A stretch of DNA of 64,000 nt, from the NCBI GenBank assembly GCA_937871435.1, contig CALMQM010000121.1, positions 1-64,000 on the forward strand, written 5' to 3'. Positions 4,701 to 49,679 of the stretch are shown here, in pieces. The DNA is from an uncultured Bacteroidota bacterium. GTDB lineage: Bacteria; Bacteroidota; Bacteroidia; AKYH767-A; 2013-40CM-41-45. Below the pieces are notes generated by a model, which made no database searches, had not been told where the DNA came from, and saw nothing but the letters and a program-made list of their open reading frames with translations. Position 1 is the first letter of the stretch. Every line of letters starts with the position of its first letter. The translations under genes and the position numbers were made by a program.

Positions 4701-7700
4701 GATTTCCTGCTATTGGTGCATTTCCGATTCCTCCTGTCCATGTGTACACTAATGGAGGAGTTCCACCTGTGACCTGTACTGAAAGGGAACCATCCGTTCC
4801 ACCATAACACGATACATTATTCACTCCCGCTACAGCAGCCGACATAGATCCTGAATTCGTGACAAGCATTGAATTGACCACTGAACATCCATGTGCATCT
4901 GTTGCGGTGCAAGTATAAGTTCCCGCGGCAAGATTATTCAAAGAAGAAGTGTTTCCTCCGCCGGGACTCCACTGATAAGTATACGGAGCAGTTCCTCCGC
5001 CAACAGCTACTGAAGCGGATCCATTCGGTGCACCGCAAGTTCCGGCAACAACTGAAGGTACTGCAGTAAATACAGGAGGTTCAGATATACTAACTCCTAC
5101 GACATCTGTACAGGAATGCGCATCCGTGACGGTAACAGAATAATTTCCTGCCGGAATACCGGTGAGAGAAGCGGATGTTCCATTCACCGGTGACCATGCA
5201 TAAGTATAAGGAGCTGTCCCGCCTGCAACAACTACTCCCGCGTTGCCGTCATTGCCTCCGTTACAACTTACATCCCTCAGAGCAGACAAAGTTGCCTGCA
5301 ACAAAGAAGGTTCTGAAATACTTTGTACACTGGTGATGGTACAACCCATTTGATCCGTTACGGTAACGGAATAATTACCTGCAACAAGTGATGTCGCTGA
5401 TGAAGCATTCGGAGCACCGTTTGACCAGGCATAAGAATATGGTGTAGTTCCACCTGATACATTTAATGAAAATGAACCGGTATTTCCTCCGTTACATGCG
5501 ACGTTCGTAACTGACGGTGCAGCCTGCAACGGAGCAGGTTCAGTAATTTGAACGGGCACAGAAGTCTGACAGGAATTCCCATCAGTTACAGTAAGCACGT
5601 AGGATCCTGCATTCATCCCTGTAGCTGAAGAAGATGTTCCACCTGTCGGTGACCATGCATATTGATACAAAGGTGTGCCACCAGATGCCAGCATAGTAGC
5701 TGAACCATTCGATCCGCCCGCACAACTGACATTGTTTTGCGTTGTCAATTGAAGTGACAATACAGGTGGTTCAGAGACAACCGCTGTAGCATTTTGTACA
5801 CAACCATTGGCATCGTGTACAGTTACAGTGTAATTACCAGCTGGCACACCATTAAGAATATTTCCTGTTGATCCTCCTCCGGTCCATGCATAAGTGTATG
5901 CCCCAACTCCACCGGTTGCCAGCACTGTTGCTGTTCCATCGGATGCATGTGCACACAAGGCGTCGGTACTGATTATGTTCAGGTTCAATGCAGGAGGTTC
6001 AGTGATCACGACTGTGAGTCCGGACATGCAATGATTACCATCTGTAACCATCACGGAATAAGAACCTGCCTGTAAACCTGTAGCATTTACTGAGGTTCCT
6101 CCTGAAGGAGACCATTGATACAAGAAAGGAGCTGTTCCCCCACTCACTGAAATGGATGCGGATCCTGTTGACGCGCCTGCACACAATACATGTACAGTAG
6201 AAGTCAGGCTGACAGTGGGTCCACCGATATTGGAGACTGCGATGGATGCAGATTCTGTACATCCGTTGGCATCAGTTACAGTGACGGAATAATTACCGGC
6301 AGGCACAGATGAAATTGATGATGTCGTATTTCCTCCGGGAGACCATAAATATGAATAGGGTGACGTACCTCCTGTTGGAGTTACACTTGCACTGCCATTA
6401 GAACCCGCACAGGTAGCAGGAACAGTAGAACTGGATAAAGTCAGTAAAGGCGGCTCCGTAATTACAGCAGAAACAGATACAGTACATGCATTCACATCTG
6501 TAACTGTAACAGTATAATTTCCTGCGGCCAGATTGGTTGCATTGGGATTTGTTCCTCCCAAAGGAGACCATTGATATAAATATGGTTCTGTTCCGCCGAC
6601 TGCTTCAATTGTAACAGATCCCGCTGCATCTCCGTGACATGAGTTCATGGTGGTACTAAGTATAGAAGATGTAAGAACCGGAGGCTGGTTGACAGAGACA
6701 ATGGCCTGTTCCTGACAATTATTTGCATCACTAACGGTAACTGTATATGTATTTGCAGTGAGTGAAGACGCGTTAGCTGAAGTCCCGCCGGAAGGAGACC
6801 ACAAGTATGTATGAGGCAAAGTGCCTCCTCCTGACAATACTGTTGCCATCCCGTCATTTCCTCCGAAACAACTCACATTCACAGGTGAAAGAATTGTCGT
6901 AGTGAGTGCAGGCGGTTCGGTGATGTTGGCAGTGGCAGTGGAAAGACATCCTCGTGCATCAGCAACTTGTACGGAATAAGCACCGGCAGGCAAAGGGCCG
7001 GAATTGGAAGAAGTGCTTCCACTGCCTGACCACAAATAAGAATAAGGTGTAGTACCTCCACTCACATTCACAAGTACTACTCCTGTAGAATCACCATGAC
7101 ACAGTACAGGAACGCTTGTTGAAACCGATGATAACAACATCGCCGGTTCAGTGATTGTGACTGTCGCGTTTTGTGTACAGGCATTTGCATCGCTCACTGT
7201 CACCTGATAAGAACCTGCTTCCAGACCAACAATTGTCGGAAGGGCTCCGACAGAAGGAGACCAGTTGTAAGTATAAGGAGTAGTTCCTCCGCTTGCTGTT
7301 ACTGTTGCGCTTCCATTGCTGCCGCCATTGCACGATACAGGAGAATTGGAAGACACAGCAACGTTCAACTGTGGAGGTTGAGTAAGAGTAACAGATTCTG
7401 TGATTGTACAACCGTATGCATCGGTAAGTGTCACCTGATAATTACCGGCGACGAGATTTTGTGGATTGGCAGATGCGCCCGCTCCGTTCGACCAAGTATA
7501 TGTATAAGGTGTAACACCTCCACTCGCTGAAGAAAGTACGGAACCATTGTTGGAACCAAAACAGGAAGGACTTCCTGGTGTCAGACTAATCTGTAAAGGA
7601 TTCGGCTCTGTAATGTCTACAACTGTAGAGGACACACAGTTATTTCCATCTCTGACTACTACAGAATAACTTCCGGCCTGTAATCCGGATGCATAAGTAC

Positions 7701-9939
7701 CGGTACAAACAGAAGGATTCCATTGATAAGTATATGGAGCAGTTCCTCCACTCACTAAAATTGTCGCATCGCCGTTATTGCCACCGGCACATAGCACATT
7801 ATGCGTCGAGGCAACTGATACGGTAGGTCCACCGAGGTTTGATATTCCGGCTACGTCTGTGGCAGTACAACCATGAGCGTCAGTAATAGTAATGGTATAT
7901 GCACCTGCCGCCACACCCGAAAGTGTTGCAGTAGTAGAACTACCCGGACTCCATTGATAGGTATATGGAGAGGTTCCTCCCGAAGGAATAACTGTTGCAC
8001 TACCGTTAGAACTTCCACAAGTAGCGGAAACAGTGGATACACTGCTGCTCACAGCAGCAGGTTCAGTTACATTTACAGAAGAGACTGTTGTACATCCGCG
8101 AGCATCGGTTGTTGTTACCGAATAATTGCCCGCAGCCAGCCCGGAGAGTGTTGTACTCGTTGCTCCTCCAAGAGACCAATTATAGGAATAAGGTGTTGTA
8201 CCTCCGGAAGCATTCACAGTCGCTGTTCCTGTTGCATCACCATGACACAACAATGCTGTACTTCCACTAATGCTTGACAAAAGCAAAGCAGGTTGAACAA
8301 TTGATACAGTTGATGTCTTGATACAAGCATGAGCATCTGTTACTGTCACAGTATAAGTGCCGGCTGAAAGTCCGGAAGCAGAAGCTCCTGTTCCTCCGGA
8401 TGGTGACCAGGAATATGTATAAGGCGATGTTCCTCCACTCGCTGAAATTGCAGCTGCTCCATCGTTGCCTCCTCTGCAGGAAACACTCGATGAACCGGCT
8501 GTCGACAGTGTGATAGGAGTAGGTGTTGTGACACTTGTAGTAGCTGTGAGAGTACATCCGTTCGCGTCGGTGGCAGTCACAGTATATGTTCCTGCACCCA
8601 ATCCTGTGATGGTGGATGTTGTGGCTCCACCGGGAGACCATGAATAATGGAATGGCGAAGTTCCACTTGCATTTACAGTTGCTGTTCCGTTTAATGGAGT
8701 AGCACAAGCAGAAGGTGTTGACACTGCACTTGTACTCATGACAGGTACAAGAATGTCATAAGAATATGTTTGAAAACCCGCGCTCGGACAATTGTTATCC
8801 TGCACAGTAACGGTGAAGGTATATACCTGCGGTCGCGCGTCTGCTGCTGATGGTGTCCAGGTGAAAGTACCTGTCGGATGCGCAGCTCCGGTAGAAGTAA
8901 AAGTTGCACCAGAAATCGAATTGTTCCAGTACATCGTTACCAATTGTCCTGCATTTCCGTCATTCGATGTGATGTTAAATGACAAAGGTTGTCCGGGACA
9001 AGCGACAATACTGAAATTGTTCGTCCCGTTAATACCGGATGCTGTTGGCAAAATGTTAGAACAAGGTTGTGTCCAGATTTGCATATCCCTGATAACCGAT
9101 CCCACCAACACACCATTGTGGTATTCTCTCACGATAATTGCCATCACTCCTACTTCTGTTTGTGTCGGAGTTACCAGGATGTCTCCTGAAGCGTCAATTG
9201 TCATTGCAGGAGAAGATGAAATAGGACTGTTCACATTATAACCCGGCGCAAACACAACATTGGTGTTGGCAGCGGAACGGGGAGTGATAAATGCATAAGT
9301 GATAGAATCACCATCTGTTTCAAACGCTCCGTGGTTGTAGTGAAATGTTTGTCCGATACACAAAAATGAAATCGGAATATTTGAGAAGATCGGAGATGAG
9401 TTATGAGGCGCAGCTACGTTGTTCAAAGTTGCTTCTACATACAAAGCAGGAACTCCGGTACAATTGGGGGGTGTATAAGATAAAGTAGTAATCGCGCAGT
9501 TACGGCAACAAATTGAATATCCGAATCGCCAGTCTGTACATTGAGCAGGCAATGTTACAGTTCCGACATATTCATATTTCTGAATTCCGGGATTCGTTCC
9601 TCCGCTACAGGTCGTAAGTCCTGCTGTACACGGATGCGTAATTTCCTGTCCTGTTCCGGGCAATTTGTTCAAAGTAACATTCAGGTTGTAACCGCAGGAT
9701 ACTGAAGAATAGCTTACAGAAACGTTGTTCGGCGCAGAGACTCCGGAGCAATCACGATACAAAGTCAGATCAAGATTGTAAGTATTCCCGCTCACCCAGG
9801 TGTAGGTGATGTCTGCCCCACTGATATGTGTCGCAGAAGCTGTGAAGTTGAGACAGAACAATATGAAAAAAAGTACAGCCATTTGCAGAATGCTGCGAAT
9901 GGATATAGAAACTCTACCGGATTGAATAATTTTTTTCAT
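1783..9939 (-). CDS. Giant SprB-repeat adhesin, T9SS type B sorting domain
   Basis: This 2718-residue protein has an N-terminal signal peptide, then a conserved domain starting THISGADITYTW that is common at the front of giant Bacteroidota surface proteins. Ig-like segments follow to about residue 400. About 25 SprB-type repeats of roughly 76 residues fill 400-2310, then two Ig-like and two PKD domains with the motif WDFGDG. The end, from about 2629, is the gliding-motility-associated type B sorting domain (FTPNEDGVNDHF, then FDRWG). Such proteins are exported by T9SS and act as surface adhesins; SprB moves along the cell in gliding Flavobacterium. Whether this cell glides cannot be seen here. 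The ATG at 9939 is preferred over an in-frame TTG at 9948 because AAGGAG lies 10 nt upstream of the ATG and only 1 nt from the TTG. Confidence 0.9.
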   Translation of the reverse strand: MKKIIQSGRVSISIRSILQMAVLFFILFCLNFTASATHISGADITYTWVSGNTYNLDLTLYRDCSGVSAPNNVSVSYSSVSCGYNLNVTLNKLPGTGQEITHPCTAGLTTCSGGTNPGIQKYEYVGTVTLPAQCTDWRFGYSICCRNCAITTLSYTPPNCTGVPALYVEATLNNVAAPHNSSPIFSNIPISFLCIGQTFHYNHGAFETDGDSITYAFITPRSAANTNVVFAPGYNVNSPISSSPAMTIDASGDILVTPTQTEVGVMAIIVREYHNGVLVGSVIRDMQIWTQPCSNILPTASGINGTNNFSIVACPGQPLSFNITSNDGNAGQLVTMYWNNSISGATFTSTGAAHPTGTFTWTPSAADARPQVYTFTVTVQDNNCPSAGFQTYSYDILVPVMSTSAVSTPSACATPLNGTATVNASGTSPFHYSWSPGGATTSTITGLGAGTYTVTATDANGCTLTATTSVTTPTPITLSTAGSSSVSCRGGNDGAAAISASGGTSPYTYSWSPSGGTGASASGLSAGTYTVTVTDAHACIKTSTVSIVQPALLLSSISGSTALLCHGDATGTATVNASGGTTPYSYNWSLGGATSTTLSGLAAGNYSVTTTDARGCTTVSSVNVTEPAAVSSSVSTVSATCGSSNGSATVIPSGGTSPYTYQWSPGSSTTATLSGVAAGAYTITITDAHGCTATDVAGISNLGGPTVSVASTHNVLCAGGNNGDATILVSGGTAPYTYQWNPSVCTGTYASGLQAGSYSVVVRDGNNCVSSTVVDITEPNPLQISLTPGSPSCFGSNNGSVLSSASGGVTPYTYTWSNGAGASANPQNLVAGNYQVTLTDAYGCTITESVTLTQPPQLNVAVSSNSPVSCNGGSNGSATVTASGGTTPYTYNWSPSVGALPTIVGLEAGSYQVTVSDANACTQNATVTITEPAMLLSSVSTSVPVLCHGDSTGVVLVNVSGGTTPYSYLWSGSGSTSSNSGPLPAGAYSVQVADARGCLSTATANITEPPALTTTILSPVNVSCFGGNDGMATVLSGGGTLPHTYLWSPSGGTSANASSLTANTYTVTVSDANNCQEQAIVSVNQPPVLTSSILSTTMNSCHGDAAGSVTIEAVGGTEPYLYQWSPLGGTNPNATNLAAGNYTVTVTDVNACTVSVSAVITEPPLLTLSSSTVPATCAGSNGSASVTPTGGTSPYSYLWSPGGNTTSSISSVPAGNYSVTVTDANGCTESASIAVSNIGGPTVSLTSTVHVLCAGASTGSASISVSGGTAPFLYQWSPSGGTSVNATGLQAGSYSVMVTDGNHCMSGLTVVITEPPALNLNIISTDALCAHASDGTATVLATGGVGAYTYAWTGGGSTGNILNGVPAGNYTVTVHDANGCVQNATAVVSEPPVLSLQLTTQNNVSCAGGSNGSATMLASGGTPLYQYAWSPTGGTSSSATGMNAGSYVLTVTDGNSCQTSVPVQITEPAPLQAAPSVTNVACNGGNTGSFSLNVSGGTTPYSYAWSNGAPNASSATSLVAGNYSVTVTDQMGCTITSVQSISEPSLLQATLSALRDVSCNGGNDGNAGVVVAGGTAPYTYAWSPVNGTSASLTGIPAGNYSVTVTDAHSCTDVVGVSISEPPVFTAVPSVVAGTCGAPNGSASVAVGGGTAPYTYQWSPGGGNTSSLNNLAAGTYTCTATDAHGCSVVNSMLVTNSGSMSAAVAGVNNVSCYGGTDGSLSVQVTGGTPPLVYTWTGGIGNAPIAGNLSAGIYAVTITDAFNCSQTLSINITEPALLQSSIAAFNNITCFGANDGSAALSVTGGTSPYTYRWNPNNDSTAQVAGLNPGTFTVDITDAHGCTSQSQVSISQPAALQVSSASTPATCGSSNGSVSASVTGGTLPYSYFWTPGGMQNDFITNIPAGSYSVRVTDAHNCQTTLNTFVSNIGGPSITLADSNQVSCFGGQNGSATVSVISGTSPFTYQWSPGGGTDSIASSLSAGSYSVIVADANNCLTGLTVAITEPSLLISQASATDALCANGNDGSVMVVVNGGTQPYRYSWSNGDSTAAVFSLPSGNYDVTVTDAHGCTAIEYTSISEPTPIVTAVSQNNVNCFGGNDGSILVENTGGTPAYTYSWSNNETSNAVSGLRAGTYQVTITDQHGCSQAQSVTIAEPLALALSLTPTDAQCFGSSDGIASASLSGGTPPYAYVWSPSGGTLETATGLRAGNYTVAVTDAHGCSESSSVSIGSPSPITLNATQTAARCAGSQDATATIFPSGGVSPYSYSWTGGSTNASVGAVAAGIYSVTVTDAHGCSETSSVQLSEPTPVSMSVQGSAWICIGQNATLSAVASGGTANYSYQWNTTATTASIQAAPQSTTVYTVSVTDANGCTAAPQTIQVNVFPGLLASTAGDDSICVGHSANLSVNPAGGNGGPYNYVWSNGAGTQSIQVSPAVSAIYTVTVSDNCGTPPVVLTVPVAVVSGPPADFLPNPASGCPPLIVQYRQQGTTPAGTTYMWDFGDGTTSINRNPTHTFTTPGHYTVRHIVTNGMGCRTEAQVPAAVEVFPLPEAAFSSQPDDASIFRPEISFFDESKLGAAWQWDFGDGQGTSTLRFPKYSYLDSGLYTVRLITTSPKGCMDTTYSVVRIRGEFAIFIPDAFTPNEDGVNDHFSALGIGIKDFELHIFDRWGSEIFTSANLEKGWDGTTNNSQKQCQADVYVYIIRVHDMENLPHQYLGHVTLVR
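3010..8735 (-). repeat. Array of about 25 SprB-type coding repeats
   Basis: Each unit of about 76 codons follows the plan C-x-G-x-(N/D)-G, then SGGTxPYxYxW, then AGxYxVTVTDAxGC, ending in (T/S)EP. I counted 25 units by eye. The units are diverged, so this is an old protein-level array rather than a recent DNA tandem repeat. Variant units (TCGSSNG type, ending SNIGGP or similar) recur at positions 4, 11 and 20, with a related unit at 17. Confidence 0.85.
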
Positions 9940-10383
9940 ACCATACAATCTCCTTCAAAATTTTTCTCCTTCAGGAAATCAAATCCGATCCGGGCGAAGC
10001 CGGGGATTCTCCACTATATAGTGGTTCAGACGGCAGAAAGGGAGAAATGTTGGAGCAGTTCTGGCTCAATTCAAACAGAAATTCCGGCTTTATTCAATTG
10101 TTAAAAATTGAATTTTATTGTTTTTCAATGCTCTCAAAATCAAACATCAGGCATTTATATAATCAGAAAAAGATTCAAATCGGGAATTTTTAACCGAAAT
10201 GAAGATTCAGGTTAATTGAAAAAAGAGCATTTTAATTTTTCATGAAAAAAAAGAATAGAATTTCTTACAGATTCTGCCTCTTGTTGAAGTATGAATGATT
10301 CGTCATCTGATCTCATTTCTGTTCATTGAAAGGAAATGAGAGACATGTTGCGTTATAATACAAAGGCTATTCCGTATTTGCAT
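9940..10383. other. Intergenic region upstream of the giant adhesin
   Basis: This 444-bp AT-rich gap separates the adhesin start from the 3' end of the MBL-fold gene, which is transcribed the same way. It contains the 14-bp palindrome listed separately and an AAGGAG ribosome site for the adhesin. No further gene and no clear terminator of the upstream gene are visible. Confidence 0.5.
10011..10024. promoter_or_regulatory. Perfect 14-bp palindrome, possible operator
   Basis: The sequence CCACTATATAGTGG is its own reverse complement and lies about 72 bp upstream of the adhesin ATG at 9939. It could be a dimeric regulator site near the adhesin promoter. It has no T-tract, so it is unlikely to be a terminator. 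The operator role is an inference from symmetry and position only. Confidence 0.35.
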
Positions 10384-35724: not shown

Positions 35725-35997
35725 TTGAACAGTTTTTACCGGAAATACGCCGGTGTATTTATTCTGTGTACCTGATTCAACACTGAAAGTTGTAAGAAGA
35801 CATAGAATTCATTACACTGAAAATTGCTCAAAAAACAAGATTCATTCAAAAAAGTTCGTTTTTTTAATAAATTCAGACTCCTCTTTACAAAAACAATTGA
35901 ATCTTACCGAAAAGGTTAGATGGATTTTGACAAGAATTTTCTGATTTAATCTTTATAAAAAGACATTCAGCATATGCTACAACGAGGATTACGGATT

Positions 35998-36139
35998 CCG
36001 CTGCGACTGACCTGTTAACCATTTGTCGCATGTATTCTTATACTAAAGGTAATAAATATTGCAGCGCTTCGACGGACATTCGTCCGGAGAAGCTATGACG
36101 TGCGTTTATTTGAAAGTTAAAACAAATCAGGCACAGCGG
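35998..36139. repeat. Foldback element, copy A
   Basis: This roughly 140-nt element is 92% identical to copy B at 37810-37947 over 101 nt (93 matches by my count) and shares the end GGCACAGCGG. Structure: terminal CCGCTG pairs with CAGCGG; TGCGAC pairs with GTCGCA (36002-36007 and 36024-36029); GCTTC pairs with GAAGC enclosing CGGAC/GTCCG, the two helices separated by a GA/GA internal loop. The element lies 17 bp beyond the stop of the cargo at 36156-37748. The rest of this 431-bp gap (35725-35997) is AT-rich with no gene. Confidence 0.75.
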
Positions 36140-36155
36140 GAAATTTTTAGTTCCA

Positions 36156-37748
36156 TCAATATTTCAACAACTTAGAAACAGCGCCATCTTCTGTTCTTAA
36201 AAAATATACACCGGGAACAAGATCGGAGATGTCCAGTTTTTCATTTTGAAATTTTAGTTCAAAATGTTTGATCATTTCTCCGGAAAGGGAATAAATGTTT
36301 ATGCTTTGAGGGATGAGTACCTTCTCAGTATAAATAAAGTCACTGGCAGGATTTGGGAAAAAAGTGATTCCCTCAAGGCTCGTTTCGGGGATTGAGTTTA
36401 TGATTGAACCGAGTTTTGCAACCCAAAAATCTGTGTTCCCGCCATGAAAATTTGAAACGTCAAATCCGGGACCATAGGTATTGGAACACAATGCTAAACC
36501 ATGATCAATCGTTTGAATAACTTTTTTGCACTCATCACCGTATGGGCTTCCGAAACATTTTTGTGATTGAATCACTCCTAGCTCCGAAAACTGTACTAAC
36601 CAATTATCTTGCGCCGAACTATGATTACCACTCACATCATCATCATTTGACATCGTAAATCCTACTGTAACAAATGAACTATCCTCTGCTTGTAGAATTG
36701 AATAAAATTCATCACCATCAGTTCCTCCCATTGCATGTTGCCATATCAAGTTTCCCATGCTATCAATCTTAACAACCCAACCATCAGCAGCTAAATTGTC
36801 ATGTCTGTTCGTTACGTCATAATCGATTGATTCTGCAAAACCGGTTAGTATAAATCCTTTATCATTTGTTTCAACTGCATCCGTACACCAATCATCTCTA
36901 CTTCCACCGAAATTATTATTCCACAACATATCCCCCGTGGAATCCGTTTTAACTACCCAATATTGTTTGTCTCTTCCAAGTGGTATGTTGGGTTGGCCAT
37001 CATTACTATCTGTAAAGCCACATAATACGTAGCCTCCATCAGAAGTTTGTTTCATGGAAAAAGGACTTTCCCGAGTACTTCCTCCATAACAATGTTGCCA
37101 TATGACATTTGCCGATGAATCCAGTTTTACCAACCAAAAATCTTCATCTCCGTGGTTACCTTGCACCCATATATCATTTGAATATGTTGCCCCAAAAGCA
37201 ACAATTGAGTGATCAGCTAATTCCACAATTGACTCAAAGCCATCTCCTTCCGATCCACCGATACACTTTTGCCATATTATACCACCAACACTATCTAATT
37301 TTACAATCCAGGCATCACTACTACCATGATTCCCGGATACATCTCCATCATTTGAAAATGTAATTCCTGCAATCAAGTATCCCGAACCAGATAAAGAAAC
37401 ACTTCTTCCAATGTCCATCATTGATCCTCCCAAAGATTTAGACCATTCGATATTCCCAACTGTACTCAGTTTAACAACCCACGTATCAAAACAATATGCT
37501 GTGGAGCAATTTCCTGGATGAAATCCAACAACATCTCCGTCATTTGATGAAGTGTATCCAACTACTAAATATCCTGAATCAAGTGTTTGACAAATACTAT
37601 AATTATAATCATCGCTACTTCCTCCTAAACTTATTTCCCATTCAATGTTCTGTGAGAAAACTGAAGAATGATGAAATAGAAAATAGAGAAATATTAATGT
37701 AGATAAGTTAATTCTAAAACAGGAGAATCTTTTACGGGTTATTTTCAT
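36156..37748 (-). CDS. T9SS cargo with repeated delta-60-like propeller
   Basis: The 530-residue protein has a signal peptide (about 1-32) and nearly identical propeller blades of about 60 residues: IxWxxSLGGSxxDxxxS, then SGYLVxGYTxSNDGDV, then WVVKLDSxGN. I count seven or so. This repeat is common in Bacteroidota secreted proteins. It ends in a type A sorting domain (ITFFPNPASDFIY, VPGVYFLRTEDG). The propeller likely binds ligands or is structural, and no catalytic residues are evident. The gene looks more AT-rich than its giant neighbours and is bracketed by foldback copies A and B in direct orientation. Confidence 0.88.
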   Translation of the reverse strand: MKITRKRFSCFRINLSTLIFLYFLFHHSSVFSQNIEWEISLGGSSDDYNYSICQTLDSGYLVVGYTSSNDGDVVGFHPGNCSTAYCFDTWVVKLSTVGNIEWSKSLGGSMMDIGRSVSLSGSGYLIAGITFSNDGDVSGNHGSSDAWIVKLDSVGGIIWQKCIGGSEGDGFESIVELADHSIVAFGATYSNDIWVQGNHGDEDFWLVKLDSSANVIWQHCYGGSTRESPFSMKQTSDGGYVLCGFTDSNDGQPNIPLGRDKQYWVVKTDSTGDMLWNNNFGGSRDDWCTDAVETNDKGFILTGFAESIDYDVTNRHDNLAADGWVVKIDSMGNLIWQHAMGGTDGDEFYSILQAEDSSFVTVGFTMSNDDDVSGNHSSAQDNWLVQFSELGVIQSQKCFGSPYGDECKKVIQTIDHGLALCSNTYGPGFDVSNFHGGNTDFWVAKLGSIINSIPETSLEGITFFPNPASDFIYTEKVLIPQSINIYSLSGEMIKHFELKFQNEKLDISDLVPGVYFLRTEDGAVSKLLKY

Positions 37749-37809
37749 GTATACATTTCAACTATTTTATACGCATCGCCATGTGATCATTTTAAAAAAA
37801 ATAAACCCT

Positions 37810-37947
37810 CTGCGACGGACTTTTAAACCATTTGTCGCATGAATTCTTATTCTAAAGGTAATAAATATTGCAGCGCTTCGACAGACATTCGTCCGGAGAA
37901 GCTATAACGTACTATTGAGAAAATTATAAGTAATTCCGGCACAGCGG
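37810..37947. repeat. Foldback element, copy B
   Basis: This is the second copy, in the same orientation as copy A and 62 bp upstream of the cargo start at 37748. The TGCGAC/GTCGCA stem and the GCTTC/GAAGC stem are both preserved. One base in the inner stem differs (CAGAC opposite GTCCG), and the terminal pairing keeps five of six base pairs. The interval also lies 55 bp beyond the 3' end of the cargo at 38003-40870. Confidence 0.75.
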
Positions 37948-38002: not shown

Positions 38003-40870
38003 TCAATAAACAAATTTCTCCGTCAATTCCTCATCCTTGAATACAACCTGGATTGTATATACGCCATGAGCCACAGTTGAAAAAATGAATTGACATTGCA
38101 TAATCCGTGCTTCGGTTATCAGTGGTAGATTCTGAACTATTCTTCCAAGCGGATCTCGCAGAATCACATTGGCATTTCCGTTTTCCGGAAACCGAATCTG
38201 TACCTGCACATGCCCGTTCGCTGCATCAGGAAACACATGAATAATCTGAAATTGAGTAGATCGAAAACGAATGGAAACAATATTACTCAGTGAAAAATGC
38301 CCGTCAAAATCTGTTTGCCTTATCCGATAATACGATAAGCCATTGAATGGCTCATCATCCAATGCATCGTATTCCAGTGTTTGCGTGCTGTTCCCGGCTC
38401 CATCGATATTTTTGACAGATTCAAAATGAATACCATCCTTACTTCTTTCAATTGTGAAATAATCATTGTTTATTTCTGTAGCCGTTACCCAGTGCAACTG
38501 CACCGCTTCGCCTTTTGCAGTTGCTTCGAAGGAAAGTAACTCAACAGGCAAAGGATTTTCGGATGTAATCGATGCAAGAGTAAAAGGTCCGTAATTAGCG
38601 GTTACGAAACTACTTACCGTTCCGGACAAGGTATTTCCTGTTGTCGCTGTATTGCCTTCATTTTCCCAAAAACTTGAATTGAAACGGGCAACACGCAAGT
38701 CAGATAAATTTGTCACTCCACAACTTGTCGCGTCCCAACTCAATGTCACAATTTTTTGCGCACTGCCTGAATTTTTATCGAGTGTCCAGTATTCACAATG
38801 ACTGATGTGATCCAAAGTCGGGTCAATAGCACTTCCATACACTAAGGTTGGATCAGTATAAAAATATTCTGCTGTATAGCTGTCTGAAACAGATGCGGAA
38901 ATACCGGCATTGAAAGCGATGGATCTATACCTGTTGTTTTTCCCAACCGGAAAGACAAAAGCGTCATTCCCGATTTTACGCATCGGACCATTTATAAAAC
39001 TTAAATTAGAAGATCCGGTAGCACCCGCATTGTCTTCTACTTCTATTAAGGATGAAGCCGAAGTCAGAAATTGACCGCTCAACAAATTGATATTGCCATA
39101 CACAAAAACATCTTTGGAAACATTCACCTGCGCGCCGCTTTTATTGATCTCCAGTTTCCAGATTTGAACTGTACCACTTCCGGAAATCGTTTGCGCGACG
39201 TTTCCGCTGAATAGCAATTTGGAAGTACTCGATCCATAGGTGTGCATTCCATCACACTGAAAATTATTCTGTACTTCAAATCCGGTCCCTTCGTTTCTCA
39301 ATGTACACCCGGATTTGATAATTATGGAACCCATCACTTTTACAGGTGATGTATGCGAATTTGAATTTAAAAAACTCAACGCTGATGAACCATTCCCTCC
39401 GACATAAAAATTTCCTTTGATGACAGGATAATTATTCGATCCCTGGAATTTACAGAGATTGTTGCTGTTCCATGTAGCCGCATTGTTTTCAATCCAAAGA
39501 TTTCCATAATACACCTGCGGATAAGGTGGCCCTCCGTTGGTAGTAGAAATGGATGGTTCCACCGCGGAGCCGGCGGCTTTGCGACAAATCCAGTTAGAAG
39601 TAGACGGAATGGAAGAAATTCCATTGTAATATTTTAGCTGCCAGTTGGTGGAATTCGTGTTGTATGTTTTGATATATGTTGCTGTATTTCCCAATCTCCA
39701 GCGCGCTGTGTTCACCCATACAACACTGATGTTACTGGAATCTTCCAACGTTCCGAGTACATCAAGATCCACTGCATTCGGGCCGTCGTCAATGGCGAGG
39801 GCTGTTCCCCAGGCATTCCACAAGGTCGCTCCGGATTCAATTCTCAACTCATCAACCACCAGATTAGGTAATCCTGCAGTTGTTACGGTATGAGGAGCAC
39901 GAATCTGAATAAATTTATCTCCAGTAGATGGAATTGTTGTCGCTGCATTCCATGTAATACTATCCGGAGAACTTTCCCATGTAGCAGTTGCATTCCAGTT
40001 TCCTGAAGCGACTGAGCGAAAATACATTGGGTTAGTAATTGGATCCGCGCTTACAACAATGTTGTCGATTGCCATACCACATGAACCACTTCCAACAGGA
40101 TTCGGATCTCTGCTAAATGCCCAGCGAAGCTGAATGGTATTCTGATTATCCGCATTGGCATTCAGAGGCAGACTCACAAAATAATCGATCTGATTTTGCG
40201 AACGATCGGAACTGTTGTGATTGTAAGATGAATCCACCACTGTAAAAGTTCCGCTGTTTCCCACGCGGTATTGAAATACAATTCCGGTTTTCTTTGGCTG
40301 CGGATTGATCATTTCTATCTCATACGAAACTCTGATGTTTTGATACCCGGTTGTTTTCAAAGCAAGCACCAGTTGATCCGTTCCTGAAGAACTGTTGCTG
40401 CTTGTTTGAATATACAATTGTCCGTTGTTGACATTTACTCCGCCAGTACCAATTCCCGAATATCCATATCCTGTGCCATTACTTTTTACAACAGTGGCTG
40501 AATCAAAAGACGATTCATTGTTGTTCGGAGTACTGTTTGATGCTGCCAGCAAGGATGTACTCGGACTACCGGCTACACGCCATACGGCAAAACCCGCAGG
40601 AATCCCTGAATTCTTAAACCAACTGTTTCCAAAATCCTGTGAGTAGGGAATTTGTTGCGGAGTCGGATTTGTCTGAGCAAATGCACCGTCAACGTTAAGA
40701 ATTCCCGAAATAATACAGATGAAAATTACAATCCGGTTCAATAGTTTTTTGCTTCCGGAGAACCCGGTGATGCATAGCACTACAAGAATGCCAGAACAGA
40801 ATTCCTTCAGATGAGAAAATTCAATGAAATTAGGGGATCTTCCATTCATATTGCATCTTCTGTTAACCAT
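38003..40870 (-). CDS. T9SS cargo with beta-helix-like and FN3-like domains
   Basis: This protein of up to 955 residues has a jelly-roll-like N-terminal domain after the signal region (IPYSQDFGNSW), a large beta-rich middle with many SG and GN turns, and from about 774 an FN3-like domain starting LPVELLSFEA that often precedes sorting domains. The last ~85 residues form a diverged type A sorting domain: FPDAANGHVQVQI replaces the usual FPNP, followed by VAHGVYTIQVVF. The start is uncertain. ATG 40870 has AGAGGA almost touching it; ATG 40849 and TTG 40741 are alternatives. The last would start directly on the signal peptide (NRIVIFICIISG to GAFAQ), whereas the upstream starts add about 40 residues and a second hydrophobic stretch. 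Confidence 0.8.
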   Translation of the reverse strand: MVNRRCNMNGRSPNFIEFSHLKEFCSGILVVLCITGFSGSKKLLNRIVIFICIISGILNVDGAFAQTNPTPQQIPYSQDFGNSWFKNSGIPAGFAVWRVAGSPSTSLLAASNSTPNNNESSFDSATVVKSNGTGYGYSGIGTGGVNVNNGQLYIQTSSNSSSGTDQLVLALKTTGYQNIRVSYEIEMINPQPKKTGIVFQYRVGNSGTFTVVDSSYNHNSSDRSQNQIDYFVSLPLNANADNQNTIQLRWAFSRDPNPVGSGSCGMAIDNIVVSADPITNPMYFRSVASGNWNATATWESSPDSITWNAATTIPSTGDKFIQIRAPHTVTTAGLPNLVVDELRIESGATLWNAWGTALAIDDGPNAVDLDVLGTLEDSSNISVVWVNTARWRLGNTATYIKTYNTNSTNWQLKYYNGISSIPSTSNWICRKAAGSAVEPSISTTNGGPPYPQVYYGNLWIENNAATWNSNNLCKFQGSNNYPVIKGNFYVGGNGSSALSFLNSNSHTSPVKVMGSIIIKSGCTLRNEGTGFEVQNNFQCDGMHTYGSSTSKLLFSGNVAQTISGSGTVQIWKLEINKSGAQVNVSKDVFVYGNINLLSGQFLTSASSLIEVEDNAGATGSSNLSFINGPMRKIGNDAFVFPVGKNNRYRSIAFNAGISASVSDSYTAEYFYTDPTLVYGSAIDPTLDHISHCEYWTLDKNSGSAQKIVTLSWDATSCGVTNLSDLRVARFNSSFWENEGNTATTGNTLSGTVSSFVTANYGPFTLASITSENPLPVELLSFEATAKGEAVQLHWVTATEINNDYFTIERSKDGIHFESVKNIDGAGNSTQTLEYDALDDEPFNGLSYYRIRQTDFDGHFSLSNIVSIRFRSTQFQIIHVFPDAANGHVQVQIRFPENGNANVILRDPLGRIVQNLPLITEARIMQCQFIFSTVAHGVYTIQVVFKDEELTEKFVY

Positions 40871-41108: not shown

Positions 41109-44100
41109 TCATTCAACATTTATCCTGACAGGTTGAGTTGTTCCGTCCTGATCTTCTATCGTAAGCAAATACATTCCTTTGGCTTCCTTGCTCAGATCAA
41201 ACTCTGCCATATTCAAACCGGCAGATACATCCACTACCTTGTACATGAGGCAATGTCCGGGAAGGTCAAAGATTCTGAAAATCCTGTATCCTTCCTGCTG
41301 TGAATTGAATTGAAGAGTAAACAATCCCCTGTTAGGGTTCGGATAGATTTGCAACAACTGATCCTGAGACATTTCTTCTCCGGAAGTTCTGCATGCAAGA
41401 TTCACTGCTATGTTCAGCTGAGCCGGTTGTCCTGATCCGCAGGCATTTGTTCCTTTCACTTTCAAAAGTGCCGAAGTGGAAGTTGCTGAATTATAATTTA
41501 CAGAAACCGAAGTTCCGGAAGGAACAGAAGACGCTCCTCCGGTAATCGACCAGCTATAGGTATTCGCGCCGTTGATAGTTGCAATGGAATATGTCTGAAC
41601 AGAAGATTTGCAAACGGTGGTCGGACCTGTGATTGCTCCTGCTGTTGCAGGCAATGAAGAAACAATCAGACATCGGAAAATTCCGGAGCCACACGCGTTG
41701 AGAGCCTGTACACATACATTTCCACTGCTGAAGTTTGCCGGTATGGAAACCGTAATGGAAGTAGTTCCTTGTCCGCTGAGAATGCTGGTTCCCGCCGGAG
41801 TCGTCCAGTTATACGATGTTGCGGAAGCCACTGCCGCAATACTGTATGCTACAGTTTGTGCTCCGCACAAGTTAAAGTAAGGGCCGGTTATAGCTCCAGG
41901 TTGCGCCGGTACTGATTTGATTGCCACCGATCGCTGATAACTTCCGCAACTTGTGATAGCGTCTACCATCAAATTTCCGCTTGTGAATCCGGGAAGGAAA
42001 TTCACTACACAACTCAATCCGTTTTGTGAAACGATGCTAATGTAAGGTGTATTGGTTGTCCACAGATAGGATGTGGCTCCAACCACCGTACCGAAAGAAT
42101 AGCTGACATTATTTGTTCCGCCACAAACAACTGTTGGTCCTGTTATCGGGATAGAGTTTGCGGGAATTCCGGTAATGTATATTCCGCGTGTCGCTGAATT
42201 ACCCACACAATTCGATGCATACACCGAAAGACTTCCTTGTCCGAATCCTGCCGGAACAGAAACTGAAATTGTATTCGTTCCTTGTCCACCAGTGATAGCG
42301 ACTCCTGTACCTGTGACGGACCAGTTGTAAGATGTTGCATTTGCAACCAATGGCGTGGAGAATGTATGTGTTCCCGGTCCACAAATGATGGTGTTCCCTA
42401 TGATAGATCCCGGAACTGCCGGTTTCACTGTGAGCACCGGAGCATTAATACATGTTGCCGAACTACTTCCACAACCGTTGTTTGCCGTGACACAAATAAA
42501 TCCTCCTCCATAATTAGCCGGGAAATTCACTGAGATACAATTTGAAGCTGAAGATCCTGTAACTCCGGATGGTAAAGTCCAGGTATAGGAAGTTGCGCCG
42601 GCAACAGGATTTACACAATACACGATGCCGGTTTGATTTCTGCAAACACCAACCGGACCTGAAACCGGACCCGGTGCTGCAGGAGCTGATCCTCCTCCGG
42701 CTACTGTTGTTGATGCACTTCCTGTGCAGCCATTGGCATCCGTGATCACAACATAGTAAGCGCCTGCTGGAATCGAACTGAGTGTTGATGAAGATTGTGT
42801 TGTTCCTCCATTCCATGAATACGAATAAGGTGCTGTTCCTCCACTTGCAACGACTGTAGCGGAGCCATTCGATAAGCCGCAAGTTGCCGCGACAGTAGAT
42901 ATCAGTCCTTCAACCTTCGATGGTTCGGTGAGTGTCACTGAAGTTGTAACAGAACATCCATTTGCATCACTAATGATGTATGCAGAAGTTCCGGCATTCA
43001 CATTACAGAAAGCACCTGTTCCACTGTAAGCCGGAGTCCCTCCTGTTGCGCTCACGAGTACACATCCGCTTCCACCATAGCAGGTGATCGGAGTAGTAAC
43101 AGAAACAGTCGGGAGAATCGGATCCGGCTGGAGAATATCAATGGAAGTTGTATTGAAATCTCCGGTTGCATCGGTTACTGTTACTGTATACGTCCCCGCG
43201 GACAAACCTGAAATTGACTGAGTGTAAATTCCATTTCCCCAATCATATGTATACGGACTCACACCTCCTGTTGGTGAAACACTGATACTTCCTGTTGATC
43301 CGTTGTAACAGGGTACATTGGTATATGAAATATTATCAAGATTGATATTTTTCTCACAGGATTTAAAGACAATATCATCGATTCCATAATCATAGCCAAT
43401 GAGATTGCTTGGATTCGTTTGTCTGATTCGCAAGGAAGCTGACTGAATATTCGCTGCAGCAGTAAAGCTTGTACAATAGGTAGTCCACATACCATTCACC
43501 ATCGAAACAGCCGGAACACTGAGAATAACTGATGAGCCTAACATGACATCGAGGCTGGGTTTATCCGTACTACCGGAAACATTCGGATGTACAGCAAAGC
43601 TAAAAGTATAGGTTCTACCAATGACAATATTCCCGACAGATTGCTGCCACACAATGGTAGGAGCTGCATTCCTGCCATCGACAATAAGGTAATTTGCATT
43701 TCCTGTTCCGGTACCTGAGGTATTATCAGGAATGAGCAAGAAGTTTGCACATTTAACCTTTGCTGTATTACCTACACAATAGCTTCCCTGCAGACAGGTA
43801 CAAATATTCGGGAGATCACTGGTAAATCCTGTATTACCTGCGGAGAAATTACCGTTCACCACTTTATTCGGCGAAAGGTGATGCACACTGTCGCATGGAC
43901 AAACACAGGAAATAATCGGATCGTGGTGAACGACACCATTGAGACAATAGTCCTGAGTACAAGGATTGTTGTCATCAACATCAATAATCACATTTACCAT
44001 TACATAATTGGTATCCTTGCAACCGCCTGCGGATGTCGCGATCAAAGCATATTGAGTAGACACCATCGGCGTTACATTCATCGGATTTCCATTTCCTATC

Positions 44101-47100
44101 GGAACAAATCCGGGTAAAGAATACCAGGCATATGTCACACCAACAACAACAGGAGCTTGCAGCGGTACAGTGGTACCCTGACATATGGTAGTACTGCTCG
44201 CATAGTAATCAATACATAATTGTGGTCTGATGGCAGCATTTGCATTTTCTCTTGAAGCAAAATTAATCGCGTGATAATAATTTATCGGATTGAGAGGATC
44301 ATCAGCGAGTTGCAACATCATTCCATTGTTTACACCTGTATTGGAAATGTTCTGGATAATATTTGTCACTGTTACACTGAGATTGGTGGTAGTATTATCC
44401 CCCAGATCTGCGCCAGGATCAGTAAGACCATTTGCTGCAGGTGCTCCATTCCAGGTAACAGTATTTTCTGTCCACGGTGCCGACAAACCACTCACGATAG
44501 AATTATTTCCATACAACGGAGTGGCGAACCAGGGATTCAATCCACTTAAGTCACGGTGAATATCATTCGGTGCACACGTTGGACAATTCGATAAAAGAAG
44601 AGTCGCATTGACAACGGAATTGGAAGGAATAGACGCCATGTTGAATTTAAACAACGCACGTGTATTGTAGAAAGGTCCTGTACTGTACGTCCAACGGGAA
44701 ACATTAATGAATGGATAATTGCTGTAATTTGTGGTTGGGGCAAACTGACTAATCACGGCATCTTCGGTAGCAACGAGACACGTAGTTTTAAATACTCCGG
44801 CTTGTGGACTAAGTTGCCATTCACATTCTAAATTAATTGTATCTGTTCGTGTACATCCATTGGAGTCGGCAATTGTCACTACATAAATTCCGGCGCACAA
44901 CTGATTGCCATAATTGTAGAATGGTACATCTGTAACATTTCCGCTCTGAGAATAGACAGCAGTTGAAGTATTCCCGCTGATTTGACTGATCAGAATATTA
45001 TACGGTACATGTGCGGTAGGATAAAATAAATTGAACGGTGTTCCTCCTGAACCATACGCTGTGATGGTTCCATCGCACTGATCAACAGATGGGGGCGTAA
45101 ACGAAACATGCAACTCGAGACAAGGCGGGTCAACCAGATCCAGAGTAGCACTCGATGTGCAACCGTTTGCATCTGTAACAACAATCGTGTATTGCCCAGC
45201 CGGCGCTGCATTCGGCGAACTGAATAACGGTCCGCTTACATTCGAATATTGCTGTATGGTTGTTGAAAAGCCGCCGGAAGAAATCCGCATCTCAATAGTA
45301 TAGGGCCCCGTGCCTCCATTGATATGTGTCACGAATCGGCCACTGTCACCACAACACAAAGGATTGATTGCATCCACTGAAATTATCGGTGGAACAGGTT
45401 CATGCATTGTTACATGAATGGAATCAATGCATCCATTGGAATCAGTTACATAAATGGTGTAATCGCCTGCCGGATATTTTTGGAGTGTTGAAAAACCCAT
45501 GGTTTGAAAAAATGAACAAGGATAATTTTGAACACAAGGAGATGTACTTATGGTATATGGACCCACTCCACCACCGGGAATAAAACTAAATGATCCCAAA
45601 CCGCCGCAGGTAGGCGCATCAAATACAATTACATTGATTGAAAGAGCTGGTGGCTCTGTGACTGTGTAACAACATGACGCGGTTATTCCGTTTGCATCTG
45701 TTACAGTAACACAATATACACCTGCAGCCAATCCGTTAGCGCAGGAAGTTGTTGTGGAAATTGCATTCCCGTTTTTAGTCCATGAATAATTGAATGGAGC
45801 AGTGCCACAATTCGTAGTTACACAGGCTGACCCGTTCAGTCCGCCATGACAGGTAACATTCGTACCCTGACAATTGACAGTCAATGGTGCGTCCGGCATA
45901 ATAGCAGTAAATGTTTTTACACAACCATTCGCATCTGTAAGAATGAAATCATATGATCCCGGAGGAAAATTTGAAACGGAAATACCAAGAGGATTGACAG
46001 GATAGGTACACCCCAAAGTAGGACAGGGTTCAATTGAAAGAGTATAATTCGCTGTACCACCTGAAGGAATTAAAGTGAATCCTCCTGTTTGTCCGCAACC
46101 AGCCGGAGGAAATACTGTGATTGAAAGATCCATCGCCGGTGGTTCTGTAACTGTATAACAGCAAGATTCAATACTGCCATTTGCGGGAATCACAGTGATG
46201 CAATAGGTCCCGGCTGTCAAATCTGTTAAACACAAAGAATTCGGACCCGGGAAAAGAACTCCGTTGCGTGTCCAGGAAATACTGTAAGGTGGATCCGGAC
46301 AAGCAATCGTTGCACACACAGAACCAGTACTTGCTCCATGACACACAATATTTGTTCCCTGACAAGTAAGTCCCAGATCCCGAATCGTCACACAAACCGT
46401 ATCGGTATCATTACATCCGTTCGCGTCAGTAGTGATTAATGCATAGCAGGTATTTGTTGTCGGACATACTGTAATAAAATTGGATCCTCCAGGAATCGGA
46501 ACAAATCCGGGAAGGCTGAACCAGTTGTATGCTGTCATTCCACTGACAGGCGCTGCACCAATTGTCGCACATTCATTTCTGCAAATTGAGATATCCGGAC
46601 CGGCATCCGCCGCCATGAAGCTCGGGTTACAAGTGCCATGTTTCAGTAAATGATTTCCGGAAATGGTTCCTGAAATATCGAATCCCATCACCGACCCCCC
46701 GAGGTTTCTCAGATCTACTCTCAAATGATGCACTCCGCTTGTAAGAAAATATGCCTGATGATAATCCAATCCGCCATACCCATTATACGGTCCCTGTGGA
46801 AAGACGATTGCATAATTATCAATGTAGACCAGAATCGAATCATCGAGACCTGCACTGAAGTCAAAATGTACTGTATCATCCTGACAAACACAGAACATAT
46901 ATTCAAATGTGAACGCCGGTCCTGTTGCATTATTCCCGACAGTAAGTGCGGAAAGAGAAGAAGAAATCCATTGTGAATTAGCAAAAGTTGGTTTTCCATT
47001 GTATCCATAAGCGATAGTAAATGGAGCCATCGGAAGAGAAAGCCCTTCACTTGCAGGTGCGCCGGTCAGCACCCAGTTCATTTCACTTTGTCCGATTCCG

Positions 47101-49679
47101 GTCGCGGAATTAGTTGTCTCATTGTATCCTGTGTTAATCGTAAGCGATGGAATAAGGTTGGAAGGATCACATGGATTACAACATGCTGTTTTGTGTATCG
47201 TTACTGTCACCGTTTCACCCGCTGAATTGGAAACAACCAATACATAATCGCCTTCAGGAAAAACTCCGGTAATGCATGCACTACCCTGACCACTGGTGAT
47301 GCTGGCTCCAGGTGGTACATTCCATACATAAGTATAGGGACCACAACAGCTCGTAACATTTGCACACAGAGTATTACAATCTGTAAATTCGAGTGTAGCA
47401 GACAAATAAGTAGGATTGAAACATGCATTGTCGAATGCGGCGATTTCATCACCACCATTGTAATCAATTTCAAAAGCAACTCTGTCGATCATATTGGTCA
47501 CAGGATCCCAGTCGTTTGCGGCAGTTCCTGCCAACGGTTCCCACAATCCTAATGAAGAAACAGGAGCCGGATTGCAATTTGTTATCGGAGCGCAAATGCG
47601 GTGCCAGCCATCTGTTTCGGTTACTGTAACAGAAGAAGTGAATTTGAATCCTTTTCCATTTCTGTAAATGTAAAAGACAGGATGAAGATTCAGCACATTT
47701 TGCGGATCACCATCATCAATTACTTTGTAGTCGTAACAGAATTCTCCGCAGCACCATCTACCATTATAACCCGGCTCCGCCATCAACTGCGACATGCCGG
47801 TAAGATCCGATGCCAGAACATAGTAATCACCCGCGCCATTCTGTGATCCAACATTGCTGATCTGAACATCAACCATCGGTGCATTCGGATTGGGTTGCCA
47901 GTCATGCAGGTTATTGTCATCAAAATTCCGACAATACCCGGCGTTGCATGGACAATCCACAACGGTAATTGTGTTCGCGACTGAATCAAGATGTCCGCAT
48001 GAATCGGTGAACACGTAATACAGAGTATGTACACCAATTTGAGCCTGGCCCGGATTAAACCATTCATCAGCATAGGTGCCCGGACCATGATAAACTCCAC
48101 CGGCTGGTGAACCTCCGGTCAAATGGAAGGAAATATCACCGCTGCATTCTCTTGGCAGAATTGTATTCCATGTCAATGTCGGAGGTGTATAAATGGAAAT
48201 GCATACGGTATCAGTATCAGAACAAATCCCGGCATTGCTTACAATTACTGCATAACATGTAGCCGCTGAAGGACACACTGTGACCGTATTGCTACCGCCG
48301 GGAATGGCCACCCAACCTGCAAGAGTATACCATTGATAAGAAGTTGCACTTCCACCTGCAGGAGTTGAAAGTGTAATACAGGAGCCTGCACATATTGTCG
48401 AATCCGGACCTGCATCAGCTACCGGCTCAGCAACTATTTTTATCGTGTCACAACATTCGTAGAGACCACATGGAGTTATTGCCGAAACACAAAGCACACC
48501 AACAATTCCTGTTTGCATAGCTGCGGCTGTCCATCCTATAGTTACTGATGAACTTCCCTGTCCGGACAACAAATTCATCCCGGCCGGTAATGACCATGAG
48601 TAAGCTGTCGCTCCCGGAACTGCAGCGATAGAAAAAGTTGCGGTTCCTGATGAAGGAATTCCGCAGAAAATTTTCGGACCGAGAATCGGACAAATGTCTG
48701 TTACAGGAGAAGAAGAAGTACAAGGAGAACAAGCTGCAAGATTGAGTGATCTGTTTGGGGTCAGAATCAAATCATCAAAAACATCTGTGAAGCCATCGCC
48801 ATTTAAATCGGTATTAAAATATCCATTGATACCATTCTGAATGTCATTCTGCATAATTGGTTCATCACAATCATTGATCAGCCCATCCTGATTCAGATCG
48901 CCGGAATAAATGGACCATACCCCTTCGCTGTTCACATCAATCATATTTTCACAATACGCTTTAGAAGCACCGGTGCTGAAATCATAAAAAGTATTTCCGG
49001 ACATGCCAATCGGAACTGAACTCCATGTTTCGAGTGAACTGCGATGTCTTATTACGATGTAATAGTTGCCTCCGTTTAGTGAACAGGGAAATTCACAATG
49101 CAAACTTCCATCGGTTTGTAACATGCCGGTATCACTGGCGATCACTAAACAGGCATCTGTCACATCATGCAATTCCACAATTACTGAATCAACATCAGTA
49201 GGATTATACGGAGGGATGGCTCCAAGCTCATTGTAAATTGCCGGTGACATGGTTCCGTTTCCCTGATAATATCCCTGAATAAATAATTTCAGATCAAGTA
49301 CTACCTGTGGAAGAACAGTAACTGTTACAAAGGAACATGCTCCTGGAGTCACACATCCACCTTCTCCCCTTACGAAATATGTTTCGGTCGTAAAAGGCAC
49401 AACTGTGATAGCAAAACCATTACCTGCCGGTACACCTCCACACGATCCGCTATACCAAAACCAGTCTGTAGCATCATTTAAATTTCCTGATGCAATCGAC
49501 AACACAACCGCATTGCCGACACACACTGAATTCTGCGAAACGGAGATTGCAGGTAAATCCGCATCCTGACAAGTCATTTCAGATTGAGCCTCATTCAAAA
49601 CAGGGCTTGCTCCAATTGTCAGATTAGACAAAATCATAAAGAAAAGAATAGAGAAGCAGAGGTGTAGTGATGTTTTCAT
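41109..49679 (-). CDS. 2856-residue multidomain T9SS surface protein
   Basis: After the signal peptide (ends near TIGAS) come Ig-like segments, then a dockerin-like pair of calcium loops (GDLNQDGLINDCDE and DLNGDGFTDVFDD). Ig-like and CC-rich SprB-type repeats fill the middle, along with a carbohydrate-binding-like domain (EFCYDYKVIDDGDPQ region). A DNRLRE domain follows (ALFKFNMASIPSNS, PWTENTVTWNGAP). SprB repeats and at least six PKD-like repeats of the type GATSYxWTxPxG with GQGTxSIxV fill the C-terminal third. A type A sorting domain (LLQIYPNPNRGLFTLQF, KGMYLLTIED) ends the protein. It is likely a surface adhesin or matrix protein; no enzyme core is obvious. It is transcribed alone with a strong terminator. 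Confidence 0.9.
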   Translation of the reverse strand: MKTSLHLCFSILFFMILSNLTIGASPVLNEAQSEMTCQDADLPAISVSQNSVCVGNAVVLSIASGNLNDATDWFWYSGSCGGVPAGNGFAITVVPFTTETYFVRGEGGCVTPGACSFVTVTVLPQVVLDLKLFIQGYYQGNGTMSPAIYNELGAIPPYNPTDVDSVIVELHDVTDACLVIASDTGMLQTDGSLHCEFPCSLNGGNYYIVIRHRSSLETWSSVPIGMSGNTFYDFSTGASKAYCENMIDVNSEGVWSIYSGDLNQDGLINDCDEPIMQNDIQNGINGYFNTDLNGDGFTDVFDDLILTPNRSLNLAACSPCTSSSPVTDICPILGPKIFCGIPSSGTATFSIAAVPGATAYSWSLPAGMNLLSGQGSSSVTIGWTAAAMQTGIVGVLCVSAITPCGLYECCDTIKIVAEPVADAGPDSTICAGSCITLSTPAGGSATSYQWYTLAGWVAIPGGSNTVTVCPSAATCYAVIVSNAGICSDTDTVCISIYTPPTLTWNTILPRECSGDISFHLTGGSPAGGVYHGPGTYADEWFNPGQAQIGVHTLYYVFTDSCGHLDSVANTITVVDCPCNAGYCRNFDDNNLHDWQPNPNAPMVDVQISNVGSQNGAGDYYVLASDLTGMSQLMAEPGYNGRWCCGEFCYDYKVIDDGDPQNVLNLHPVFYIYRNGKGFKFTSSVTVTETDGWHRICAPITNCNPAPVSSLGLWEPLAGTAANDWDPVTNMIDRVAFEIDYNGGDEIAAFDNACFNPTYLSATLEFTDCNTLCANVTSCCGPYTYVWNVPPGASITSGQGSACITGVFPEGDYVLVVSNSAGETVTVTIHKTACCNPCDPSNLIPSLTINTGYNETTNSATGIGQSEMNWVLTGAPASEGLSLPMAPFTIAYGYNGKPTFANSQWISSSLSALTVGNNATGPAFTFEYMFCVCQDDTVHFDFSAGLDDSILVYIDNYAIVFPQGPYNGYGGLDYHQAYFLTSGVHHLRVDLRNLGGSVMGFDISGTISGNHLLKHGTCNPSFMAADAGPDISICRNECATIGAAPVSGMTAYNWFSLPGFVPIPGGSNFITVCPTTNTCYALITTDANGCNDTDTVCVTIRDLGLTCQGTNIVCHGASTGSVCATIACPDPPYSISWTRNGVLFPGPNSLCLTDLTAGTYCITVIPANGSIESCCYTVTEPPAMDLSITVFPPAGCGQTGGFTLIPSGGTANYTLSIEPCPTLGCTYPVNPLGISVSNFPPGSYDFILTDANGCVKTFTAIMPDAPLTVNCQGTNVTCHGGLNGSACVTTNCGTAPFNYSWTKNGNAISTTTSCANGLAAGVYCVTVTDANGITASCCYTVTEPPALSINVIVFDAPTCGGLGSFSFIPGGGVGPYTISTSPCVQNYPCSFFQTMGFSTLQKYPAGDYTIYVTDSNGCIDSIHVTMHEPVPPIISVDAINPLCCGDSGRFVTHINGGTGPYTIEMRISSGGFSTTIQQYSNVSGPLFSSPNAAPAGQYTIVVTDANGCTSSATLDLVDPPCLELHVSFTPPSVDQCDGTITAYGSGGTPFNLFYPTAHVPYNILISQISGNTSTAVYSQSGNVTDVPFYNYGNQLCAGIYVVTIADSNGCTRTDTINLECEWQLSPQAGVFKTTCLVATEDAVISQFAPTTNYSNYPFINVSRWTYSTGPFYNTRALFKFNMASIPSNSVVNATLLLSNCPTCAPNDIHRDLSGLNPWFATPLYGNNSIVSGLSAPWTENTVTWNGAPAANGLTDPGADLGDNTTTNLSVTVTNIIQNISNTGVNNGMMLQLADDPLNPINYYHAINFASRENANAAIRPQLCIDYYASSTTICQGTTVPLQAPVVVGVTYAWYSLPGFVPIGNGNPMNVTPMVSTQYALIATSAGGCKDTNYVMVNVIIDVDDNNPCTQDYCLNGVVHHDPIISCVCPCDSVHHLSPNKVVNGNFSAGNTGFTSDLPNICTCLQGSYCVGNTAKVKCANFLLIPDNTSGTGTGNANYLIVDGRNAAPTIVWQQSVGNIVIGRTYTFSFAVHPNVSGSTDKPSLDVMLGSSVILSVPAVSMVNGMWTTYCTSFTAAANIQSASLRIRQTNPSNLIGYDYGIDDIVFKSCEKNINLDNISYTNVPCYNGSTGSISVSPTGGVSPYTYDWGNGIYTQSISGLSAGTYTVTVTDATGDFNTTSIDILQPDPILPTVSVTTPITCYGGSGCVLVSATGGTPAYSGTGAFCNVNAGTSAYIISDANGCSVTTSVTLTEPSKVEGLISTVAATCGLSNGSATVVASGGTAPYSYSWNGGTTQSSSTLSSIPAGAYYVVITDANGCTGSASTTVAGGGSAPAAPGPVSGPVGVCRNQTGIVYCVNPVAGATSYTWTLPSGVTGSSASNCISVNFPANYGGGFICVTANNGCGSSSATCINAPVLTVKPAVPGSIIGNTIICGPGTHTFSTPLVANATSYNWSVTGTGVAITGGQGTNTISVSVPAGFGQGSLSVYASNCVGNSATRGIYITGIPANSIPITGPTVVCGGTNNVSYSFGTVVGATSYLWTTNTPYISIVSQNGLSCVVNFLPGFTSGNLMVDAITSCGSYQRSVAIKSVPAQPGAITGPYFNLCGAQTVAYSIAAVASATSYNWTTPAGTSILSGQGTTSITVSIPANFSSGNVCVQALNACGSGIFRCLIVSSLPATAGAITGPTTVCKSSVQTYSIATINGANTYSWSITGGASSVPSGTSVSVNYNSATSTSALLKVKGTNACGSGQPAQLNIAVNLACRTSGEEMSQDQLLQIYPNPNRGLFTLQFNSQQEGYRIFRIFDLPGHCLMYKVVDVSAGLNMAEFDLSKEAKGMYLLTIEDQDGTTQPVRINVE

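Follow-up and report, generated by a model that had tools for sequence, protein, structure and literature searches.

The window considered here, a 64-kb stretch of DNA, contains two near-identical intergenic elements that lie on either side of a single gene for a secreted protein. This arrangement raises the question of whether gene and elements form a cassette that is moved or excised by recombination, whether the elements are structured RNAs attached to the 3' ends of the genes that they follow, or whether more ordinary processes have placed them there.

Two elements around one T9SS cargo gene

Copies A (35996-36139) and B (37805-37947) are in direct orientation, are each about 143 nt long and are better read on the minus strand. 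Copy A is an imperfect palindrome (CCGCTGTGCC...GTCGCAGCGG) with the inverted ends CCGCTGTGCCTGATTTGTT and CCGCTGCGACTGACCTGTT, and it starts 16 nt past the stop codon of the enclosed gene (36156-37748, minus strand). Copy B shares its core with A, differs in the left arm and starts about 55 nt past the stop codon of the gene at 38003-40870 (minus strand). A central hairpin was located by reading at 36066-36093 in A (minus strand; GCTTC-TC-CGGAC-GAAT-GTCCG-TC-GAAGC) and at 37875-37902 in B (minus strand). Aligned over 142 positions, the two copies are identical at 118 (83%), rising to 33/34 (97%) in the hairpin and 29/31 (94%) in the core, with 91% identity along an ungapped stretch of 104 nt. 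When the genome was searched with copy A as query, B was matched at E = 3.5e-39, which excludes chance as the source of this likeness. The sequence-only reading had described near-identical elements in direct orientation, with a common end, GGCACAGCGG, after a diverged stretch. This is in agreement with the present comparison, in which the diverged stretch, of about 30 nt, proves to be the left arm (17 matches in 32 positions). No other copies are found in the window and, as had been stated, no transposase was found among those ORFs of the window that were compared with Pfam.

The same reading was also correct in that A and B enclose exactly one T9SS cargo gene. Its 530-aa product is propeller-like, with weak similarity to SBBP-type propellers, and ends in a T9SS type A sorting domain (Por_Secre_tail). 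The gene had been described as looking more AT-rich than its giant neighbours; it is AT-rich (GC 0.374, with a GC3 of 0.269 that is the lowest among the genes measured), but not exceptionally so, since several neighbours have a GC of 0.374-0.384. The gene upstream of copy B encodes 955 aa without a Pfam or NCBIfam match, despite a C-terminus that resembles a T9SS sorting tail. Elsewhere in the window, the giant repeat-rich ORFs at 1783-9948 and 41109-49679 have in common a related unit of about 230 nt, present in about 29 copies.

A family of seven copies

A BLAST search of the organism's own genome (4.36 Mb in 128 contigs) with copy A returned five copies at E<=4e-24: A and B on contig C121, two on C110 (C110a and C110b) and one at the edge of C124. 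A covariance model built from these five found two more, with E-values of 1.2e-9 and 6.4e-5, one elsewhere on C121 (104035-104174; C121far) and one on C44 (7722-7861). When the model was rebuilt on all seven, no eighth copy was found in this genome. The presence of only these two copies, with fixed synteny in relatives, had been named as a pointer to a simple local duplication, here of a single intergenic region, an explanation suggested by the nearness and likeness of A and B. Seven copies on four contigs refute it, and A resembles C110a (89% identity) more than it does B (83%); the probability of this explanation is negligible.

In all seven cases a stop codon is no more than about 80 nt away. 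For three copies (A, C110a and C124) the preceding genes are T9SS propeller paralogues, at a distance of 15-27 nt, and for B and C110b they are other T9SS-type genes, at about 55-70 nt. The C44 copy lies about 80 nt past a DUF4296-like lipoprotein gene, and C121far lies just past a LytTR-type response regulator gene, to which it is inverted; both of these genes were named from their sequences. The element is thus 3' of a T9SS-type gene in five of seven cases. Cargo neighbours are to be expected, since at least 150 T9SS sorting domains are encoded in this genome, yet five of seven still exceeds what the cargo share of genes would predict. Three of these five copies are, however, not independent of one another, owing to a common tail.

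A tail common to three genes

In the A, C110a and C124 paralogues the last 45 or so codons make up, with the element and a short spacer before it, one common tail of about 300 bp, which was found in just these three genes genome-wide. In the enclosed gene the coding part of the tail, which carries the sorting signal, is at 36156-36293 (minus strand) and is shared at the DNA level with the two other element-bearing paralogues. Over the last 45 codons, identity among the three genes is 69-82% for amino acids and 78-84% for nucleotides, compared with mostly 24-62% amino acid identity between their bodies. Similarity drops abruptly about 45 codons before the stop codon; in the other direction it continues past the stop codon and spacer and stops at the far end of the element. 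At identical residues, third positions are conserved in 70-81% of cases in the tail and mostly in 30-60% in the bodies. Gene conversion or 3'-end duplication accounts for the common tail better than protein-level selection alone. The association of the element with T9SS genes would then be partly due to recombination, and inflated because conversion of the block would have copied the element along with the T9SS tails.

Structure and probable decay of the element

The elements have no ORF of their own. In A, B and C124 the two arms are inverted repeats of each other, with scores reached by 0.8-2% of shuffles. By the same comparison of arms with shuffles, palindromy was undetectable in C110a, C110b, C121far and C44, and the terminal inverted repeats of these copies have decayed. 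One type of left arm is found in A, C110a, C110b and C124 (76-94% alike), from which that of B differs. The left arm of C121far matches that of B at 19/32 positions and those of the other copies at 16-19/33, so that a second type comprising B and C121far is suggested and not firmly drawn, C121far being only slightly nearer to B than to the rest. The match of the C44 copy is confined to the right half of the element, and one of the seven copies is truncated.

In size and form (about 143 nt, non-coding, with terminal inverted repeats in A, B and C124) the element corresponds to a MITE. No target-site duplication was seen by eye at the best copies, possibly through loss with age, and no empty site was visible for any copy. 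A clear GTAG- or CGTC-tagged REP unit of 20-40 bp was not identified in the element, and seven copies are few for REP or REPIN sequences, which are typically high in copy number.

Relatives and a possible mobiliser

The best relative of the element was found in a genome of the same family (G004), where locus L067 contains an exact match to 21 nt of the hairpin and an outer arm matching at 24/29 positions, a score that 0-0.15% of shuffles attain for the four copies with the first type of left arm. The stop codon of a gene for a REP-associated tyrosine transposase (RAYT), which scores above the NCBIfam cut-off for REP_Tyr_transpos, lies about 80 nt before the start of this half-element. The likeness is one-sided, as no matching arm is present in the 128 bases available upstream of the RAYT. 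When the 11-kb contig was scanned with the arms alone, other places equalled or approached this score for two of the four copies, so that much of the evidence comes from the hairpin. The RAYT and half-element at this locus (L067:129-1289, on G004:C43) abut a Fic ORF that may be 5'-truncated.

The pattern TTCGACGGACNNNNGTCC occurs in three of 247 genomes of the class, among them the organism's own and another of the same family, G007; G004 was absent from that draw, yet it also contains TTCGACGGACNNNNGTCC. In G007 a similar hairpin cluster with this pattern adjoins a copy of the repeat that flanks that genome's RAYT. As a rule, RAYT genes of the order have inverted repeats of their own on their flanks, as has been described in other phyla (PMC3733652). 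At L070, L074, L076 and L081 these flanking repeats are distinct, inverted or palindromic, with arms of about 25-47 nt. RAYT mobilisation of the element is offered as a lead, the link coming mainly from the one G004 locus, which was found post hoc.

The organism's own genome has no RAYT of the L018 type. Its only Y1_Tnp is an IS200-type TnpA, which was rejected as mobiliser because it is tied to a different repeat. A tandem array with a GCCCGAAGGGC palindrome (L019:1-515, on G000:C55) lies directly upstream of the sole Y1/IS200-type transposase gene.

The covariance model gave three weak matches among 395 genomes of the class, in or mostly in coding sequence and taken as chance, and a match at L017 in G006 also looks like chance. 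At another G006 locus (L055:1494-1641, on G006:C257) an intergenic hairpin is followed by GCTGCAATTTTTATTTCCTTT, which resembles the core of the element, with a weak score. An exact core pattern had one match in GTDB genome contigs, in an Oscillospiraceae MAG and taken as chance, and none in viral contigs; blastn of plasmids and phages gave no match. The family is likely to be lineage-specific.

Alternative explanations

Recombination between dispersed elements was one of the two readings first put forward. The element would be a recombination site, either integron attC-like or homologous, and gene plus element the mobile unit. Gene and then element do follow one another in a single direction throughout at C121 and C110, and varied gene bodies carry one common tail. 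The pairs do not correspond, however: at C121 it is the gene between the two copies that carries the tail, at C110 the upstream gene, and the genes enclosed at the two loci are about 25% identical in amino acids, not orthologues and unrelated beyond the propeller fold. LytTR and lipoprotein genes also precede copies, arrays never exceed two, and most copies are not in clean pairs. Integron attC cassettes are similar in having a palindromic site of about 140 nt 3' of the gene in direct orientation. Here the best match to an integron integrase falls under the curated cut-off and scores slightly higher as a Xer-type recombinase, no RYYYAAC/GTTRRRY boxes were read by eye at the element ends, and the common tail extends into coding sequence, which an attC boundary would not do. 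Movement or excision of a cassette by way of the two copies is thus not supported, and we regard this explanation as very improbable. A further proposal, in which sorting-signal codons and palindromic element form an exchangeable 3' module through which recombination grafts the T9SS export tag onto new bodies, seems to us improbable. A diversity-generating retroelement TR/VR pair was also rejected: the differences between A and B fall on all bases and are not adenine-specific, and the elements are outside the CDS.

That the element acts as a structured RNA, a 3' UTR element or sRNA controlling the stability or termination of cargo mRNA, would be consistent with its position 3' of genes, with a fold of copy A far better than that of shuffles (z = -4.85), with retention of the hairpin in most copies and with conservation of the unpaired core CAATATTTATTACCTTTAGAATATGAAT. 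Covariation is no higher than in shuffles, although five sequences are few for such a test, and conserved RNA structure is therefore not supported. Furthermore, copy B folds no better than shuffles (z = -1.0), Rfam gives no match, one copy runs opposite to the gene upstream of it and no terminator-like site lies within the elements. Of the earlier suggestion, then, a dispersed element 3' of cargo genes stands and the structured RNA lacks support; we consider the latter rather unlikely. A MITE of a TIR-type insertion sequence unrelated to RAYTs would be a variant of the preferred explanation with another mobiliser. It would account for the length, the terminal inverted repeats, the intergenic non-coding position and the truncated copy, but no full-length parent with these ends was found in the organism's own genome or the 395 class genomes, no target-site duplication was seen and the best relative adjoins a RAYT. 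This variant is unlikely.

A probable orphan repeat family and proposed exchange of sorting tails

The explanation that we favour, and hold to be probable with some reserve, is that A and B belong to an orphan, decaying REPIN/MITE-like family of intergenic repeats and that gene conversion has separately affected the tails of T9SS genes. Imperfect-palindrome repeats of about 143 nt, similar to REPIN, ERIC or MITE sequences, would have spread by transposition into intergenic sequence 3' of genes and would now be decaying. They may have been mobilised as a gene-less miniature of a RAYT-type transposon, a proposal made because a homologous half-element sits a short way 3' of the RAYT gene in G004. 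As an independent process, homologous recombination (gene conversion) would have copied a block of about 300 bp (CTD codons, spacer and element) between three T9SS propeller genes. Given insertion near stop codons and conversion of this block, the enclosed gene would merely sit between its own copy and that of its neighbour.

REPIN/REP sequences and their RAYTs are likewise palindromic, intergenic and mostly just 3' of coding regions (PMC3116915, PMC3733652), and the half-element in G004 adjoins a RAYT; they are abundant, whereas here there are seven copies with degenerate arms and no resident RAYT. ERIC, RUP, NEMIS and other bacterial MITEs are similar in being non-coding, gene-adjacent imperfect palindromes of about 100-200 bp (PMC10969869, PMC3733652). 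The present element differs in its very low copy number and lack of a target-site duplication, and the likeness is one of form, no sequence relation having been noticed. In Porphyromonas gingivalis, domain shuffling and allelic exchange of surface proteins yield mosaics with a conserved CTD (PMC5266723). That exchange is between strains and involves adhesin or catalytic modules (PMC5266723); the one proposed here is within one genome and involves the CTD end and an intergenic repeat.

A suggestive cassette thereby becomes a checkable case of two ordinary processes, in which a small mobile repeat decays and the sorting tails of T9SS genes undergo gene conversion. Were the exchangeable 3' module real, it would have diversified the secreted repertoire. 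The abrupt drop in similarity and the alike third positions in the tail are a clear signature of tail exchange among genes for secreted proteins and, if such exchange is general, it would help to explain how a Bacteroidota genome keeps at least 150 cargo genes tagged for export.
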